This document shows, piece after piece, positions 28,726-35,188 of a DNA stretch of 47,567 nucleotides. Below the pieces are notes generated by a model, which was given only the letters and a program-made list of their open reading frames with translations, was not told where the DNA came from and searched no databases. The stretch's first letter is position 1, and every line of letters starts with the position of its first letter. The position numbers and the translations under genes were made by a program. The stretch comes from an uncultured Oscillospiraceae bacterium (GTDB lineage Bacteria; Bacillota; Clostridia; Oscillospirales; Acutalibacteraceae): contig URED01000015.1 of assembly GCA_900546785.1 (NCBI GenBank), forward strand, positions 1 to 47,567, read 5' to 3'.

Positions 28726-29958
28726 ATGAACTCCGATTTTAAAATAAGATACAATAAAATAAGCGCAGAGCTTCAGGAACGTATAAGGCGCGACAGGGAA
28801 GCGGGATACGTCAATCCTTACCGCTGTGACGATTCGGCGGTGATCCGGCGCGATCCTGCAAGGGATAAGGCGAATCTTTGGCGCCCTGCATACGTTCGGG
28901 ATACGGAAAAGATTATCCATCTGCCGTATTATAACAGGTATGCGGATAAAACACAGGTCTTTTCTTTCTATAATAACGATGATATTACCCGCCGTGCGCT
29001 GCATGTTCAGCTCGTTTCAAGGATCGCCAGAAATATAGGCGCCGTGTTGGGCCTCAATCTGGATCTTATAGAGGCTGTTGCCTTAGGCCATGATATCGGG
29101 CATACTCCGTTCGGCCATGCCGGCGAACGCTTTTTGAGCCGCTTGCTCCAAAAAGAAACGGGCAGATATTTTAATCACAATGTGCACAGCGTTCGCGTGC
29201 TGGATACTCTTTTCTGCCGCAATATAAGCTTGCAGACGCTGGACGGCATCCTGTGCCACAACGGTGAATTTGAGCAGCAGGAATACAGACCGCAGTACGA
29301 AAAAAGCTTTGCGGATTTTGATAACAGTGTGGAGGCATGCTATACGGGCGGCAAAAGCGCGATCGAAAGCCTTGTGCCCAAAACGCTCGAGGGCTGCGTG
29401 GTGCGCATCTGTGATATGATCGCGTATCTCGGAAAAGACAGGCAAGACGCTTATATCGCAAAGATCATTCCGCCCGATTACAGATTTTCAACGGAGCTTA
29501 TCGGTGATCAGAACGCCAAGATCATCAATAATCTTTCCGTTGATATTATTGAGAACAGTTACGGCAAGGATCATATCCTTTTGAGCAAAGAGGCGTATGA
29601 AAGCCTTAAACTCATGAAAGAGGAAAACAACGCCGTGATCTACCGCAATAAGGGCATCAACGATCAGTATAACGAGATTATTATGCCTATGTTTGAGGAG
29701 CTTTATTATCAGCTGCTTTCAGATGTTTCAAAAAAAGACAAAAGCTCCCTTATTTACCGTCACCATATCCGCTTTATAAACGAAACAAGAAAATATTATA
29801 ACAGCGAGGATTATTTTAACGAGGAGCCGAATCAGATCGTTGCGGATTATATTGCAAGCATGACGGACGATTATTTTATAGCCCTGCACAAAAAGCTGTT
29901 TCCGAACAGTAAATATAAAATAACCTACAAACCGTATTTCAGTGATGAAAACAAATAA
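28726..29958 (+). CDS. dGTP triphosphohydrolase-like HD-domain protein
   Basis: A 410-residue protein. The N-terminal YNRYADKTQVFSFYNNDDIT and the following TRRALHVQLVSRIAR, then GHDIGHTPFGHAGE, are the HD-superfamily signature of the Dgt family. A distal Asp is in VRICDMIAYLGKD. Members hydrolyse dNTPs, typically dGTP, to the nucleoside and triphosphate. The ATG at 28726 follows AAAGGATGAT; an upstream in-frame extension into radC is rejected. Probably cotranscribed with radC. Enzymatic specificity is inferred. Confidence 0.85.
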   Translation: MNSDFKIRYNKISAELQERIRRDREAGYVNPYRCDDSAVIRRDPARDKANLWRPAYVRDTEKIIHLPYYNRYADKTQVFSFYNNDDITRRALHVQLVSRIARNIGAVLGLNLDLIEAVALGHDIGHTPFGHAGERFLSRLLQKETGRYFNHNVHSVRVLDTLFCRNISLQTLDGILCHNGEFEQQEYRPQYEKSFADFDNSVEACYTGGKSAIESLVPKTLEGCVVRICDMIAYLGKDRQDAYIAKIIPPDYRFSTELIGDQNAKIINNLSVDIIENSYGKDHILLSKEAYESLKLMKEENNAVIYRNKGINDQYNEIIMPMFEELYYQLLSDVSKKDKSSLIYRHHIRFINETRKYYNSEDYFNEEPNQIVADYIASMTDDYFIALHKKLFPNSKYKITYKPYFSDENK

Positions 29959-29989
29959 TTTGTTCGGCACTGCCGGGAAAGGAACAGTT

Positions 29990-31051
29990 ATGAAGAAAAA
30001 ATTTTTAAAAGCCGCAAAGGCGGCATTGGCTTGTTTTACCGTGCTTTCCGTTTCGGTATGTGCCGTTGCGTGCTCCTCTGTGCTTGATGAAGAAGTTGAC
30101 CCGGTAGCGCAGGAGGATTTCCGCGTTACCGCCTATATGGTGGGAGACCGTTTCCTGAATGCGGACGAGATCGATTATTCGCATTTTGACCAAGTCACGG
30201 ATTTTATCTTTATGAGCATGGCGGATTTCGGTACGGACGGCATGATCACGCTGAATGCGGATTTTGATACGGCTTACAACAATATCAAACCGTATCTGCC
30301 TGAGGACGCTGCGTTTTATGTAAATCTTCTGGGTCCCAAGAGCACGCTTGAAACGGATGACTGGAACGAGCAGATGGCGGATCAGGGCGCGCTGCACAAT
30401 CAGGCGTTTGCAAGCGGCAATCTGGAGGGGCAGATCAAAGAACTGCTGGAAGAATATGATTTTGACGGCGTTTATTTTGATTACGAATACCCCGTGGATC
30501 AGGTGAATTGGGACGGGTTTAACGAATTTATCGTATCGCTTGACGAATATCTGGGCGATGACTATAAGATAGGCATGGCGCTTTCGGACTGGGATCTTAA
30601 GCAGACCCCTGAGGCTGTGGCGGCAACGGATTTTGTGGAGGTTATGAGCTATGATAACTGGGATGATGACGGCAATCATGCTCCGTATGAAAACGCAGAA
30701 AAAAGCCTGGAGGCTGTTTTGGACGCAGGTTACGAGCGTTCCAAGATAGGGCTTGGGCTGCCGTTTTACGCACGCCCCACAACGCAGGAGGAGTATTGGT
30801 ACGATTATAAGACCTATTGCGATCTGCTTGATGAAAACGGGCTTTTTGAAGACGCAGAGACCGGGCTTACCTTTTCCTTTAACACCTACGATGTGATCAA
30901 GCAGAAAACAGAGCTTGCCGTGAACTGCGGTTTGGGCGGCGTTATGATCTGGCACTATTCGTGCGATGCGCCTGCCGATCATCCCGAATCTCTTTTTAAC
31001 GCCATAGAGGACGGCATCCAAACTGCCTATGCGCAGCTGCAGGCTGAATAG
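29990..31051 (+). CDS. Glycoside hydrolase family 18-like lipoprotein
   Basis: A 353-residue protein. A lipoprotein signal ends at Cys28 in VCAVACSS. The rest is a GH18-type barrel: FDGVYFDYEYP (158-168) matches the catalytic DGxxxDxE pattern with Glu166 as the acid, but the middle acidic position is Tyr162. SYDNWDDDG and GLGLPFYARPT are also typical, as is MIWHYSCD near the end. It likely acts on chitin-like or N-acetylglucosamine-containing glycans at the cell surface. The ATG at 29990 follows GGGAAAGGA, just beyond the dGTPase stop; the 16-residue upstream extension is rejected. Confidence 0.85.
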   Translation: MKKKFLKAAKAALACFTVLSVSVCAVACSSVLDEEVDPVAQEDFRVTAYMVGDRFLNADEIDYSHFDQVTDFIFMSMADFGTDGMITLNADFDTAYNNIKPYLPEDAAFYVNLLGPKSTLETDDWNEQMADQGALHNQAFASGNLEGQIKELLEEYDFDGVYFDYEYPVDQVNWDGFNEFIVSLDEYLGDDYKIGMALSDWDLKQTPEAVAATDFVEVMSYDNWDDDGNHAPYENAEKSLEAVLDAGYERSKIGLGLPFYARPTTQEEYWYDYKTYCDLLDENGLFEDAETGLTFSFNTYDVIKQKTELAVNCGLGGVMIWHYSCDAPADHPESLFNAIEDGIQTAYAQLQAE

Positions 31052-31160: not shown

Positions 31161-31189
31161 TTGAATAATCCGCTTTGTAATGCTATAAT
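31161..31189 (+). promoter_or_regulatory. Promoter of the RlmB-type methyltransferase gene
   Basis: TTGAAT (31161-31166), 17 bp, TATAAT (31184-31189) with extended -10 TGC. Confidence 0.75.
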
Positions 31190-31225: not shown

Positions 31226-31993
31226 GTGAGATCGGATAATAAAAGACCGCCCGCGGAGAATGATAATATCGTTATCGGCAGAAACGCCGTGCTGGAGCTT
31301 CTTAAAAGCGGCAGAGAGATAGAGAATATCTATGTTTCTTCCGGAGAAAAAGAGGGCAGCATAACAAGGATAATCGCGCAGGCAAAAAGCCGCGGCGTCG
31401 TTATAAAAGAGGTAAACAGAAAAAAGCTTGATTTCATGTGCGCAGGCGCAAATCATCAGGGCGTTGCGGCGTCCGTTCCGGCACATGAATATGCAACTGT
31501 GGAGGAGATACTGGATTACGCCGCCGAAAAAGGCGAAAGCCCTTTTGTCATCATTTGTGATGAGATAGAGGACAGCCGTAATTTGGGCGCAATCATCCGC
31601 TCTGCGGAAGCATGCGGCGTACACGGCATTATCATTCCCAAACGCAGAAGTGCCGGGCTGAATTTTGCCGTTGCCAAAACTTCCTGCGGCGCGCTTGAAT
31701 ACGTGAAGGTCGCCCGGGTATCAAATCTTGCCTGCGTTATAGACAGCCTGAAAAAGCAAAATATCTGGGTTTACGCTGCGGATATGGACGGGCAGGAATG
31801 GTGCAAAACGGATTTCTCCGGCGGCGTTGCGCTCGTTGTGGGCAACGAGGGGCGCGGAGTCAGCCGCCTTATAAAAGAAAAGTGCGATGTTACGGTTTCT
31901 CTGCCGATGCGCGGGCATGTAAACAGCCTAAATGCGTCCGTTGCGGTATCCGTGATCATGTATGAAGTTGTAAAACAAAGACTCGGTATTTGA
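31226..31993 (+). CDS. rlmB: SpoU/TrmH family RNA 2'-O-methyltransferase (RlmB-like)
   Basis: A 255-residue protein. A small N-terminal substrate-binding domain begins VIGRNAVLELLKSGREIENI, followed by a SPOUT methyltransferase with EIEDSRNLGAIIRSAEACGV, VVGNEGRGVS and the C-terminal LPMRGHVNSLNASVAVSVIM knot. Family members methylate the ribose of a guanosine in 23S rRNA (position 2251 for RlmB). The precise target here is inferred. It starts with GTG behind CGGAGG. The next gene follows directly. Confidence 0.9.
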   Translation: MRSDNKRPPAENDNIVIGRNAVLELLKSGREIENIYVSSGEKEGSITRIIAQAKSRGVVIKEVNRKKLDFMCAGANHQGVAASVPAHEYATVEEILDYAAEKGESPFVIICDEIEDSRNLGAIIRSAEACGVHGIIIPKRRSAGLNFAVAKTSCGALEYVKVARVSNLACVIDSLKKQNIWVYAADMDGQEWCKTDFSGGVALVVGNEGRGVSRLIKEKCDVTVSLPMRGHVNSLNASVAVSVIMYEVVKQRLGI

Positions 31994-32013: not shown

Positions 32014-34467
32014 ATGAGTCAGAATAACAATAATATGTCAATAGAGGATATCCTGCGCGAGGCGCAGGAGGTGCTCAGCAGCATCGGTTCGGAAAGGGAA
32101 GAGCCGGCTGAAGAGGACGTCAAAACCTATGTGCCGCAAAAGAAAAAAACCGCACAGGAAACACGGGAAAGCGCTTCGGCAGATGCTCAGGAGCAGGAAG
32201 AAGAGGTAAAAGAATTTACAGGCAGATCTGCTGAAAACGAGAAACAAGCTGCCCCGGCTCAGGATAAGACCAGAACGATCCCGGCGATCGGCAGTGAACC
32301 GGCAAGTGATAAGACCATTCGCGTGCCGCGGCAAAACACAGGCAGGCAAACTTTTTTCAAAAAGAATTCCGCCGATGAGGAGTATGGCTCCACACCGCCG
32401 CAGATCATCGAAAAAGCGGCAACGATCAAAAGCAAATCACGGTTTGATACGACCTCCGATCTTCAGGAGATCCCTACGATCCTTGCTGTGGAGGAGCTTG
32501 ATAAGACGCGGCGTGTACTGTCTGCGGACCGGCAGGCCGTAACGCAGGAAAACACGGAGGAATATGATCATTCGGATCAGATCAAGCTCAGCGGGTTTGA
32601 TGATGAGATGGACGAAGTGCCTGATATAGATGAAGAGCTTGCCGAAGAGCAGCTTCGTCGCCGCAGAGAGGAAAAGGTAAACAAATTCCGCGTTTTTGTG
32701 CCGGAGGAGCTTTCTGGAGACGATAAAAGCGAGGCGCAAAAGATAACGCACGGCGATTACAGAGACAGAAGCGAGCGCACAAATACGCTGGAACGCCTTT
32801 TTAAAAAGAAAACGGCCGTGCAGCTCCAGCTGTCTTTCACATTTGTTTTCAGCGCGCTTTTGCTTGCCGGCGCGCTTTTGCACGGCACGGGCTATATGCC
32901 GGCGTTCTTAAATCATGATTTTGCATACTGCATTGCCGTTACGGCGGTTTATTCGGCGGCGCTTATCACCAACATAAATATGCTTGCGCACGGCTTTCAT
33001 TTGAAAAAGGGCATCAACTTTGATTTTCCCGTCACCGTTTCGTGCCTTGTTGTGCTGGCGCACTGCATAGCAGCGGCGGCAGGTGTTGATCTGTTGTCTG
33101 ACGGCGGCTCGCTTTTTCCCTGCGCAGCGGTTTTCGGATTGTTTATGTGCGCTTACGGCAGGCTGAAAAAGCTTGTTCGTATCATTCGCAATTTTGAGTA
33201 TCTGACCGCCGGCGGAGAAAAATATACGGTTGAGGATATCGTTAACGAGGTAGACGCCCGCATCATCTCCAAAAATATGCTGGACGGCACGCCGTATTTA
33301 AAATACAGTGTAAAAACGGATTTTCCTACAAGCTTTTTTGAGATATCGTTTGCAAATGAACCGGCGGATAAGATAGCAAAGATACTTTTTCCTGTTATAT
33401 TCGGTTTCAACGCAGCGCTTTTCGTCATTTACGGTATCGTGTATTCCGATTGGCTCATTGCGTTTACGATCGTTACGGCAGGGCTTGTAATATCATGCCC
33501 GTGCGTTACGCTTGCGGCGGTAAATTCCGCGCTTTGCGATGCGTCTAAAAATCTTGAAAAGCGCGGCGCTATGATCTGCGGCTACGAGGGCGCGCATTAT
33601 ATCCACAATTCAAATGCAATCGTGATGGAGGCGTCAGAGCTTTTCGGCGCGCATTCGTGCGCGTTCCACGGCTATAAAACCTTCAACGGCGCAAAGATAG
33701 ACGATGCGCTGCTTCAGACCGCCGCAGTCATTATCCAAACGAACAGCCCGCTTGCAGGTGTGTTTGATTCCGTTATCGTAGGGCAGAATTCCATACTTCC
33801 CACGGCAGAGGGGATCACTTATGAGGATAAAATGGGTACCTCCGCCTGGATATATCAGAGGAAAGTGCTTGTGGGCAACCGCGATCTGCTGATCCGCCAC
33901 GGTGTTTCGGTACCCAAGATAGAGTATGAAAAAAAGTATACGCGCAAGGGCAGAAAGGCGCTCTATCTTGCGGTGGCGGGCAAGATCGCCGCTATGTTCA
34001 TCGTCAGCTACACGGCGGATCCCGCGCTCAAAAAAAGTCTTAAACGCCTTGAAAAAAGCGGTATGACGGTCATATTGAGAAGCTGTGATCCCTATATCAA
34101 CGAAGAGAGCATAACAAAGATATTCGACCTTCCGGAGGGCTTTATAAGAGTCATGACTGCCTCAAACGGCAGAAGCTTTGAAAAATACAGCGGTGCGGTC
34201 GCCGAAAAAAGCCCCGCCTATGCGATCCATAACGGCACAACAAATGCGTTTATCTCCACTGTTCTCGGTGCGGACAAGCTTGTTATGACGGAAAAGATCA
34301 TATCCGCGCTCGTGTCTTTCGGCTCCGCCATAGGCTTCGGCGTTGCCGTGCTGCTTGCCTTTGCAAACGGCCTCAGCCAGCTCAATGATGTAAATATAGT
34401 AATATTCCAACTGTTTTGGGCAGTATTTGTACTTTTGATTACTAAATTTCGGAAAAACGGTATATAA
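32014..34467 (+). CDS. Degenerate P-type ATPase-like membrane protein (probable pseudoenzyme)
   Basis: Residues 1-270 of 817 are hydrophilic, acidic and probably disordered, with three DKT repeats at 84, 99 and 163. Membrane helices follow (about 272-292, 303-322, 338-358, 365-382), then two more around 456-500 containing SCPC (494-497), the transport motif of CPx-type metal ATPases. The DKTGT phosphorylation motif is replaced by EASEL at 539-543, the acceptor Asp by Glu539. VGNRDLLIRHGV (619-630) and KGRKALYLAVAGKIAA resemble the nucleotide domain. TGDN becomes SCDP, and no GDGxND is found. The final two helices are present. It cannot form the normal phospho-intermediate. The ATG at 32014 is preferred over a TTG at 31990 that overlaps rlmB. 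Confidence 0.8.
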   Translation: MSQNNNNMSIEDILREAQEVLSSIGSEREEPAEEDVKTYVPQKKKTAQETRESASADAQEQEEEVKEFTGRSAENEKQAAPAQDKTRTIPAIGSEPASDKTIRVPRQNTGRQTFFKKNSADEEYGSTPPQIIEKAATIKSKSRFDTTSDLQEIPTILAVEELDKTRRVLSADRQAVTQENTEEYDHSDQIKLSGFDDEMDEVPDIDEELAEEQLRRRREEKVNKFRVFVPEELSGDDKSEAQKITHGDYRDRSERTNTLERLFKKKTAVQLQLSFTFVFSALLLAGALLHGTGYMPAFLNHDFAYCIAVTAVYSAALITNINMLAHGFHLKKGINFDFPVTVSCLVVLAHCIAAAAGVDLLSDGGSLFPCAAVFGLFMCAYGRLKKLVRIIRNFEYLTAGGEKYTVEDIVNEVDARIISKNMLDGTPYLKYSVKTDFPTSFFEISFANEPADKIAKILFPVIFGFNAALFVIYGIVYSDWLIAFTIVTAGLVISCPCVTLAAVNSALCDASKNLEKRGAMICGYEGAHYIHNSNAIVMEASELFGAHSCAFHGYKTFNGAKIDDALLQTAAVIIQTNSPLAGVFDSVIVGQNSILPTAEGITYEDKMGTSAWIYQRKVLVGNRDLLIRHGVSVPKIEYEKKYTRKGRKALYLAVAGKIAAMFIVSYTADPALKKSLKRLEKSGMTVILRSCDPYINEESITKIFDLPEGFIRVMTASNGRSFEKYSGAVAEKSPAYAIHNGTTNAFISTVLGADKLVMTEKIISALVSFGSAIGFGVAVLLAFANGLSQLNDVNIVIFQLFWAVFVLLITKFRKNGI

Positions 34468-34645: not shown

Positions 34646-35188
34646 ATGAAAAAACTTGACGGAACAAAGACGCAGGCAAATCTGATGGCGGCGTTTGCCG
34701 GCGAGAGCCAGGCGCACACCAAGTACCAGTATTACGCCTCAAAGGCAAAGAAGGACGGTTTTGTTCAGATCGCAAATCTGTTTACAGAGACCTCCAACAA
34801 TGAAAAAGAGCATGCCAAGATCTGGTTCAAGCTCCTTCACGACGGCGGCATACCGGATACCGCCGCAAACCTAAAGGACGCCGCTGCGGGCGAAAATTAT
34901 GAATGGACCGATATGTATGCCACCTTTGCAAAAGAGGCTAAGGAAGAGGGCTTTGATGAGATCGCCTTCCTTTTTGAAAAGGTAGGGGAGATTGAGAAAG
35001 AGCACGAGCAAAGGTATCTTAAATTGCTTGAAAACGTTGAGGGCGGTCTTGTGTTCAGCCGCGACGAGGATAAGATCTGGAAGTGCAGCAACTGCGGGCA
35101 CATCGTTATCGGCAAGGAAGCGCCGGAAATCTGCCCCGTTTGCTCTCACCCCAAGGCTTATTTTGAGATCAAGGCAGAAAACTATTAA
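34646..35188 (+). CDS. rbr: Rubrerythrin
   Basis: A 180-residue oxidative-stress protein of anaerobes. The N-terminal four-helix diiron domain has Glu20 and two ExxH motifs (53-56 and 117-120). The C-terminal rubredoxin-like domain binds iron through Cys147, Cys150, Cys163 and Cys166 (CSNC and CPVC). It reduces hydrogen peroxide to water in the cytoplasm with electrons from NADH via redox partners. GAAAGGAAAG precedes the ATG. The 5' leader is unusually structured. Confidence 0.97.

Follow-up and report, generated by a model that had tools for sequence, protein, structure and literature searches.

The DNA analysed here, hereafter the window, is a stretch of 47,567 nt from an uncultured Oscillospiraceae bacterium (contig URED01000015.1, assembly GCA_900546785.1). 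An intact frame on its plus strand encodes a membrane protein that resembles the P1B-type copper and heavy-metal ATPases and in which the catalytic motifs of these pumps are lost or replaced; we refer to it as a pseudo-pump. The layout of gene and protein is given below. Motifs were placed by alignment with nine true P1B pumps obtained in a profile search, and the AlphaFold2 (AF2) model of the window protein was made without its N-terminal tail.

32014..34467, + strand: pseudo-P1B-ATPase gene, 817 codons plus stop, frame intact
32014..32763, + strand: long N-terminal tail (residues 1-250), probably disordered, judging from composition and alignment gaps
32038..32061, + strand: docking-like motif SIEDILRE (residues 9-16)
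32395..32499, + strand: second tail block PPQIIEKAATIKSKSRFD...EELD (residues 128-162), conserved in the subfamily by alignment
32767..33207, + strand: first membrane helices (residues 252-398), AF2 model
33208..33360, + strand: reduced actuator-domain loop (residues 399-449), AF2 model and alignment, positions 1-114 of PF00122 being unmatched
33283..33294, + strand: D424-G-T-P427, aligned with the TGES site of true pumps
33493..33504, + strand: SCPC (residues 494-497), of which Pro496 is the sole residue conserved in the family
33628..33645, + strand: EASELF (residues 539-544), with Glu539 aligned on the phosphorylated Asp of DKTGT
33739..33753, + strand: TNSPL (residues 576-580), replacing SEHPL of the nucleotide-binding (N) domain in the alignment
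33874..33879, + strand: G621-N622, aligned with the GN motif of the P1B N-domain and retained
34081..34092, + strand: SCDP (residues 690-693), replacing TGDN in the alignment, with Asp692 retained
34228..34239, + strand: HNGT (residues 739-742), aligned at the GDGxND site, the flanks being deleted
34240..34461, + strand: C-terminal membrane helices, AF2 model

The original prediction, made from the letters of the window, described a P-type ATPase fold stripped of its catalytic motifs. This description was confirmed: SCPC stands at residues 494-497, Glu539 of EASEL at the acceptor position and SCDP at residues 690-693, and GDGxND is missing. The losses are shared by the homologues. GDGxND was found in none of 121 close proteins, 16 distant proteins, 51 subfamily loci and 94 divergent loci, and in all nine true pumps used as control. 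DKTGT was absent from the 121 close proteins. The shorter string DKTG occurs only in N-terminal tails (3/121 close proteins, 7/51 subfamily loci, 2/94 divergent loci), at residues 93-193 in proteins of 811-1169 residues, while in all nine true pumps it lies at the acceptor site; an intact DKTGT at that site was seen in none of the homologues in hand. Intermediates were looked for with profile A2, which scored 7997 candidates and gave 25 proteins. These were 16 pseudo-pumps, none with DKTG or GDGxND, and nine ordinary P1B pumps, all with both, and no protein with an intact DKTGT stood between the two groups.

Conservation was counted over 53 subfamily rows and 42 order-wide rows. Invariant in the subfamily are Pro496, Ala540, Leu543, Phe544, Ser578-Pro579-Leu580, Gly608, Gly621, Ser690, Asp692 and Pro693. 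Order-wide, Gly621 is kept in 42/42 rows, Gly608 (the second Gly of GxG) in 41/42, Asp692 in 40/42, Pro496 in 33/42 and Asn622 in 21/42. These retained residues indicate that the scaffold of the N-domain and phosphorylation (P) domain and the membrane kink are constrained and that the chemistry is not.

The relation to copper pumps is seen in both sequence and predicted structure. The window protein matched the NCBIfam CopA model at 1.4e-13 and TIGR01525 at 4.7e-12, both well under the curated cut-offs, and PDB entry 3rfu at 1.5e-9. A match to PF00122, confined to positions 115-180/181 after the actuator domain, was below the Pfam cut-off. The nearest structures to the AF2 model were copper pumps, the P1B fold and helix layout being kept over the whole length; another structural match, 9byb_A, is titled just "membrane transport protein". 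Pfam searches on ten divergent members gave a weak HAD match in two, one of them together with a weak DUF6057 match, and nothing in the other eight. With the P1B copper and heavy-metal ATPases (CopA, TIGR01525; PDB 3rfu, 4bbj, 7r0g) the protein has in common the fold, the helix order and the kink proline, as well as the second Gly of the N-domain GxG, the GN motif and the Asp of TGD. Unlike these pumps, it has no DKTGT, SEHP, GDGxND or TGES, and its actuator domain is reduced in the model to a loop of ~50 residues between two membrane helices; in further contrast to the pumps, the family has no conserved CPC, and there is a long tail that in many members carries the docking-like motif. By fold the window protein is thus a P-type ATPase nearest to P1B that lacks the catalytic features of a working pump, and it is very probably a conserved non-catalytic P1B homologue.

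The pseudo-pump gene is under purifying selection. Against L001, the homologous locus of Clostridium sp. CAG:678 (genome G001), the ratio of nonsynonymous to synonymous substitution rates (dN/dS) was 0.077 overall and 0.033 for residues 505-742, at a dS of 1.2 to 1.7. Against L016 it was 0.035 over 405 codons, at a dS of 2.1. The estimate relies on these two comparisons, other pairs and parts being saturated, and with dS near saturation here as well the values are rough. Of the parts measured, the dead N/P domain is the best conserved, and this favours a binding or structural role for it.

A protein search gave 756 homologues at E ≤ 1e-3 among 7998 scored candidates; among the best 120, all seven rows with a source name read "hypothetical protein". 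To map the family we used 197 genomes of the order to which G001 belongs. This is presumably the order Oscillospirales of GTDB, an assignment in line with the locus titles (Ruminococcaceae, Oscillospiraceae, Eubacterium, Clostridiales, Clostridia). Profile A1 matched 71 of the 197 genomes at 1e-10. The broader profile A6 matched 196 at the same threshold and one not at all: 184 (~93%) at 4.4e-63 or better, far above true pumps, and 12 at 9.4e-15 to 8.7e-34, in the range of true pumps. These A6 counts are profile matches, part of which were read as sequences, and 34 of the 42 seed rows come from the same order, so that the profile in part finds its own seeds again. In a phylum sample of 299 genomes, A6 gave three matches at 1.4e-165 or better (G001, G018 and G023), all of which are also in the order sample. 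The remaining phylum genomes matched at 7.2e-35 or more weakly, and those listed align over just ~430-710 of the 795 profile positions, as true pumps do. A class survey with A1 gave ten genomes at 2.9e-26 or better, again all members of the order sample, and the rest at 2.9e-10 or weaker. As the phylum and class surveys yielded strong matches only in genomes of the order sample, the taxonomic border of the family is sharp within the samples surveyed. The loci called divergent here come from a set of 120, in which a pseudo-pump open reading frame (ORF) was picked in 89, or in 94 when no overlap filter was applied, and most of the other 26 had been fetched for motif matches in other proteins.

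Many members carry S-[ILV]-[DE]-[DE]-I-L-x-E at the N-terminus, ahead of a long variable tail. In one divergent member that was modelled with its tail, the predicted local distance difference test score (pLDDT) was below 50 at residues 2-29 and 88-252. The strict motif lies within the first 100 residues of 50/138 pseudo-pump ORFs (19/49 subfamily, 31/89 divergent). In loci not chosen for the motif, it was found near a terminus in one of 1410 other ORFs, a 145-residue CBS-like ORF at L031. A narrower pattern was present in 23/106 pseudo-pumps and 1/1384 other ORFs, and shuffled pseudo-pump N-termini carry the motif at ~1e-4. When one related genome, G001, was searched for paralogues of the tail, the pseudo-pump gene itself was the sole match, and none of the papers listed in a literature search for the motif was relevant by title.

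The motif also recurs on the tails of VanW, ABC-2 exporter and LspA proteins, which is newly found here. Profile A4, whose input was limited to 15 pseudo-pump N-termini, gave 56 matches in 52 of the 197 order genomes at E ≤ 0.01. Twenty that lay off known pseudo-pumps were fetched and comprised nine further pseudo-pumps, four VanW-family proteins, one LspA, two probable pseudo-pump fragments and four chance-like matches. Run on eight genomes, A4 also picked up L156, an ABC-2 permease in G113, as well as a tail fragment in G186 that resembles the ABC-2 tails found later. Profile A5, which took in these finds, was run on 394 genomes and matched 97 at E ≤ 0.02. Among its best 30 loci, 19 have a pseudo-pump by hidden Markov model; the other 11, assigned by position and sequence, are four VanW, four ABC-2, one ABC-2-like tail fragment and two probable pseudo-pump fragments. 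Absent from the inputs of A5 were the ABC-2 permeases in G631, G496, G666 and G661 and a second LspA in G482. Pfam supported these identities, with VanW accompanied by PG_binding_4 and G5 in 4/4 proteins tested, ABC2_membrane in 4/4 and Peptidase_A8 in 2/2. The assignments cover the fetched part of the A4 and A5 rows, other than L157 (in G001), L223, L224 and L226.

In these unrelated envelope proteins of the same order, the motif or a close form of it (with N or D for Ser in some) ends a variable tail; in LspA it stands at the extreme C-terminus. The loci are L156 and L217-L220 for ABC-2, L166, L168, L171 and L180 for VanW, and L181 and L225 for LspA. The tails concerned are probably cytosolic. 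Matches at L172, L182, L183, L184, L227, L228 and L231 were taken as chance, judging from their sequence.

The subfamily tail (32014-32763 in the window) also contains repeated DKT[RI]x[VI] strings. At least two copies of a related DKT pattern were seen in 8/106 pseudo-pumps and in 0/1384 other ORFs. At a guess, they are putative threonine phosphorylation or FHA-binding sites.

The surroundings of the gene contribute three further features.

31161..31189, + strand: promoter-like site upstream of rlmB, matching the consensus at 10/12 with TG before the second hexamer, a consensus match only
31226..31993, + strand: rlmB-type 23S rRNA methyltransferase gene (SpoU family), the upstream partner, with a 20-nt gap to the pseudo-pump gene
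34646..35188, + strand: rubrerythrin gene, a common downstream neighbour in the window's subfamily (cluster in 35 loci)

In 128 of the 131 loci that could be judged by tblastn, rlmB lies directly upstream of the pseudo-pump gene and on its strand. Among the 49 subfamily loci it was found in 43, and the six others offer less than 300 bases of upstream sequence; among the 89 divergent loci it was found in 85, and one of the rest is too short. Three divergent loci (L109, L115 and L222) had no rlmB within the distance tested; L222 has masked bases, and for L109 and L115 the ORFs seem too long at their start. Inside the subfamily the downstream genes are fairly constant, 51 sequences giving clusters of rubrerythrin (35 loci), CorA (15) and Tex (13); across the order they change, and no downstream partner is conserved. 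On the plus strand of the window, no promoter-like site was found between the one upstream of rlmB and position 34049; the region has 11 such sites against 7.6 (sd 2.9) in shuffles, which is not above the shuffles. Co-transcription of rlmB and the pseudo-pump gene is predicted and likely. Clusters resembling hisH and hisF, named from sequence, occur in 18 and 19 clustered loci, often just before rlmB (L005, L009, L010, L012, L013 and other subfamily loci). In the window a GH18-family protein with a lipoprotein-like start is encoded upstream of rlmB, at 29942-31051.

The family is real, strongly conserved and unusual, and its reading as a pseudoenzyme is well supported. The best explanation as a whole, to which we give a rough probability of 0.6, is that these proteins form an old pseudo-pump family, near-universal in one order of Clostridia whose members are mostly uncultured, acting as an envelope scaffold or sensor. 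The pseudo-pump would neither hydrolyse ATP nor pump ions. Its membrane domain and N/P-like domain would make up a fixed platform or a ligand-responsive sensor. From the cytosol, the long N-terminal tail could, via the docking-like motif, tether the protein to a common cytosolic partner and so place it in a cell-envelope assembly. That the scaffold or sensor is docked with envelope proteins, as the recurring motif suggests, has in our view a little under an even chance. A farther-reaching version, in which a copper-pump fold turned non-enzymatic would be an order-defining membrane component of an envelope assembly, and its motif, in common with VanW, ABC-2 and LspA tails, would be read by one cytosolic hub, seems rather unlikely. 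Among the roles named in the original prediction for a conserved non-catalytic fold, a scaffold or regulator is possible and is the one we prefer. UhpC and Snf3/Rgt2 are transporter-like sensors in which a transport fold is reused for sensing; their folds differ from this one, and the comparison is an analogy only.

Several observations weigh against this explanation. The dN/dS values are rough, as noted above, and the docking-like motif is not universal. Eight short members of 541-548 residues (L123, L124, L126, L127, L134, L138, L144 and L145) have no tail at all, and all eight have rlmB directly upstream. The loss of TGES is incomplete: in at least seven of the 121 close proteins the actuator loop includes a TGE string, which in four reads TGEP. 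A purely structural role would not require GN, the second Gly of GxG or the Asp of TGD, yet all three are kept. The linkage to rlmB could reflect co-transcription only.

This linkage is also the basis of the alternative that survives best, by which the pseudo-pump would take part in ribosome maturation or in the control of translation. The upstream position of rlmB is held while downstream genes vary, and 16 divergent loci have, as one of their two nearest downstream genes, a gene that we take to encode an EF-G-like protein. However, the Pfam scans made gave no RNA-binding domain and the adjacency may be purely transcriptional, and we regard such a role as improbable.

Less probable again is a still-active, non-canonical P-type ATPase using other residues, as has been argued for human TMEM94/ERMA. 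Among the papers listed in a literature search with limited subscription coverage, none dealt with a bacterial family of dead P-type ATPases; TMEM94/ERMA is the one debated case found in print and the nearest comparable kind. Its own status is contested. In one study it lacks TGES, showed no ATPase activity and no interaction with Mg2+, and bound β,γ-methyleneadenosine 5′-triphosphate (AMPPCP) with micromolar affinity (PMC12134183), whereas another claims transport for the protein, which has a GSSANL hinge and no canonical TGES (PMC13322241). ERMA and the window protein both have the architecture of a P-type ATPase, lack TGES and have an altered hinge. ERMA differs in being eukaryotic, in its ten helices, in its nearness to SPCA according to its authors and in keeping the acceptor Asp (DKQGI), and its D427N mutation is reported to abolish transport (PMC13322241). 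An active pump would fit the retention of the fold, of the kink proline in 53/53 subfamily rows and of Gly621, Gly608 and Asp692 order-wide, and also the strong constraint on the N/P region. Against it stand the variable acceptor position and an actuator domain down to ~50 residues. The window protein has gone further in its losses, the acceptor Asp being gone too.

About equally improbable is a phosphomimetic lock, in which Glu539 would imitate the aspartyl phosphate and fix one conformation, as had been suggested from the window. Glu539 is indeed conserved in the subfamily, where the position is E in 50/53 rows. Over the 42 order-wide rows, however, it is variable, with E 8, D 8, T 8, S 5, N 3, R 2, Q 2 and K 2 as the eight commonest residues and four more rows, and the motifs of true pumps that act on the phosphate are lost or altered. 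A metal sensor or metal chaperone using SCPC, also part of the original prediction as regards sensing, fares somewhat worse still. The window protein does have SCPC, and its nearest structures are copper pumps, but CPC was found in only 3/121 close proteins; Cys495 is C in 30/53 subfamily rows and Cys497 in 16/53, falling to 3/42 order-wide, and the kink Pro496 alone is kept. Phosphomimetic locking and CPC metal sensing are thus unlikely, because Glu539 is fixed in the subfamily only and the family does not conserve the CPC cysteines. The lost motifs could raise the suspicion of decay, a frame error or an assembly artefact, which can be regarded as refuted: frames are open in nearly all listed rows, no frame error that would restore DKTGT was seen in the window protein or its orthologues, dN/dS is low and the dead domain is conserved.

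The pseudo-pump family, kept by profile in ~93% of the sampled genomes of the order and best conserved in its dead domain, is a natural system for asking what a pump fold can do without the phosphoenzyme cycle, and the motif that it has in common with other envelope proteins predicts, in a form open to testing, a new interaction network in these bacteria.
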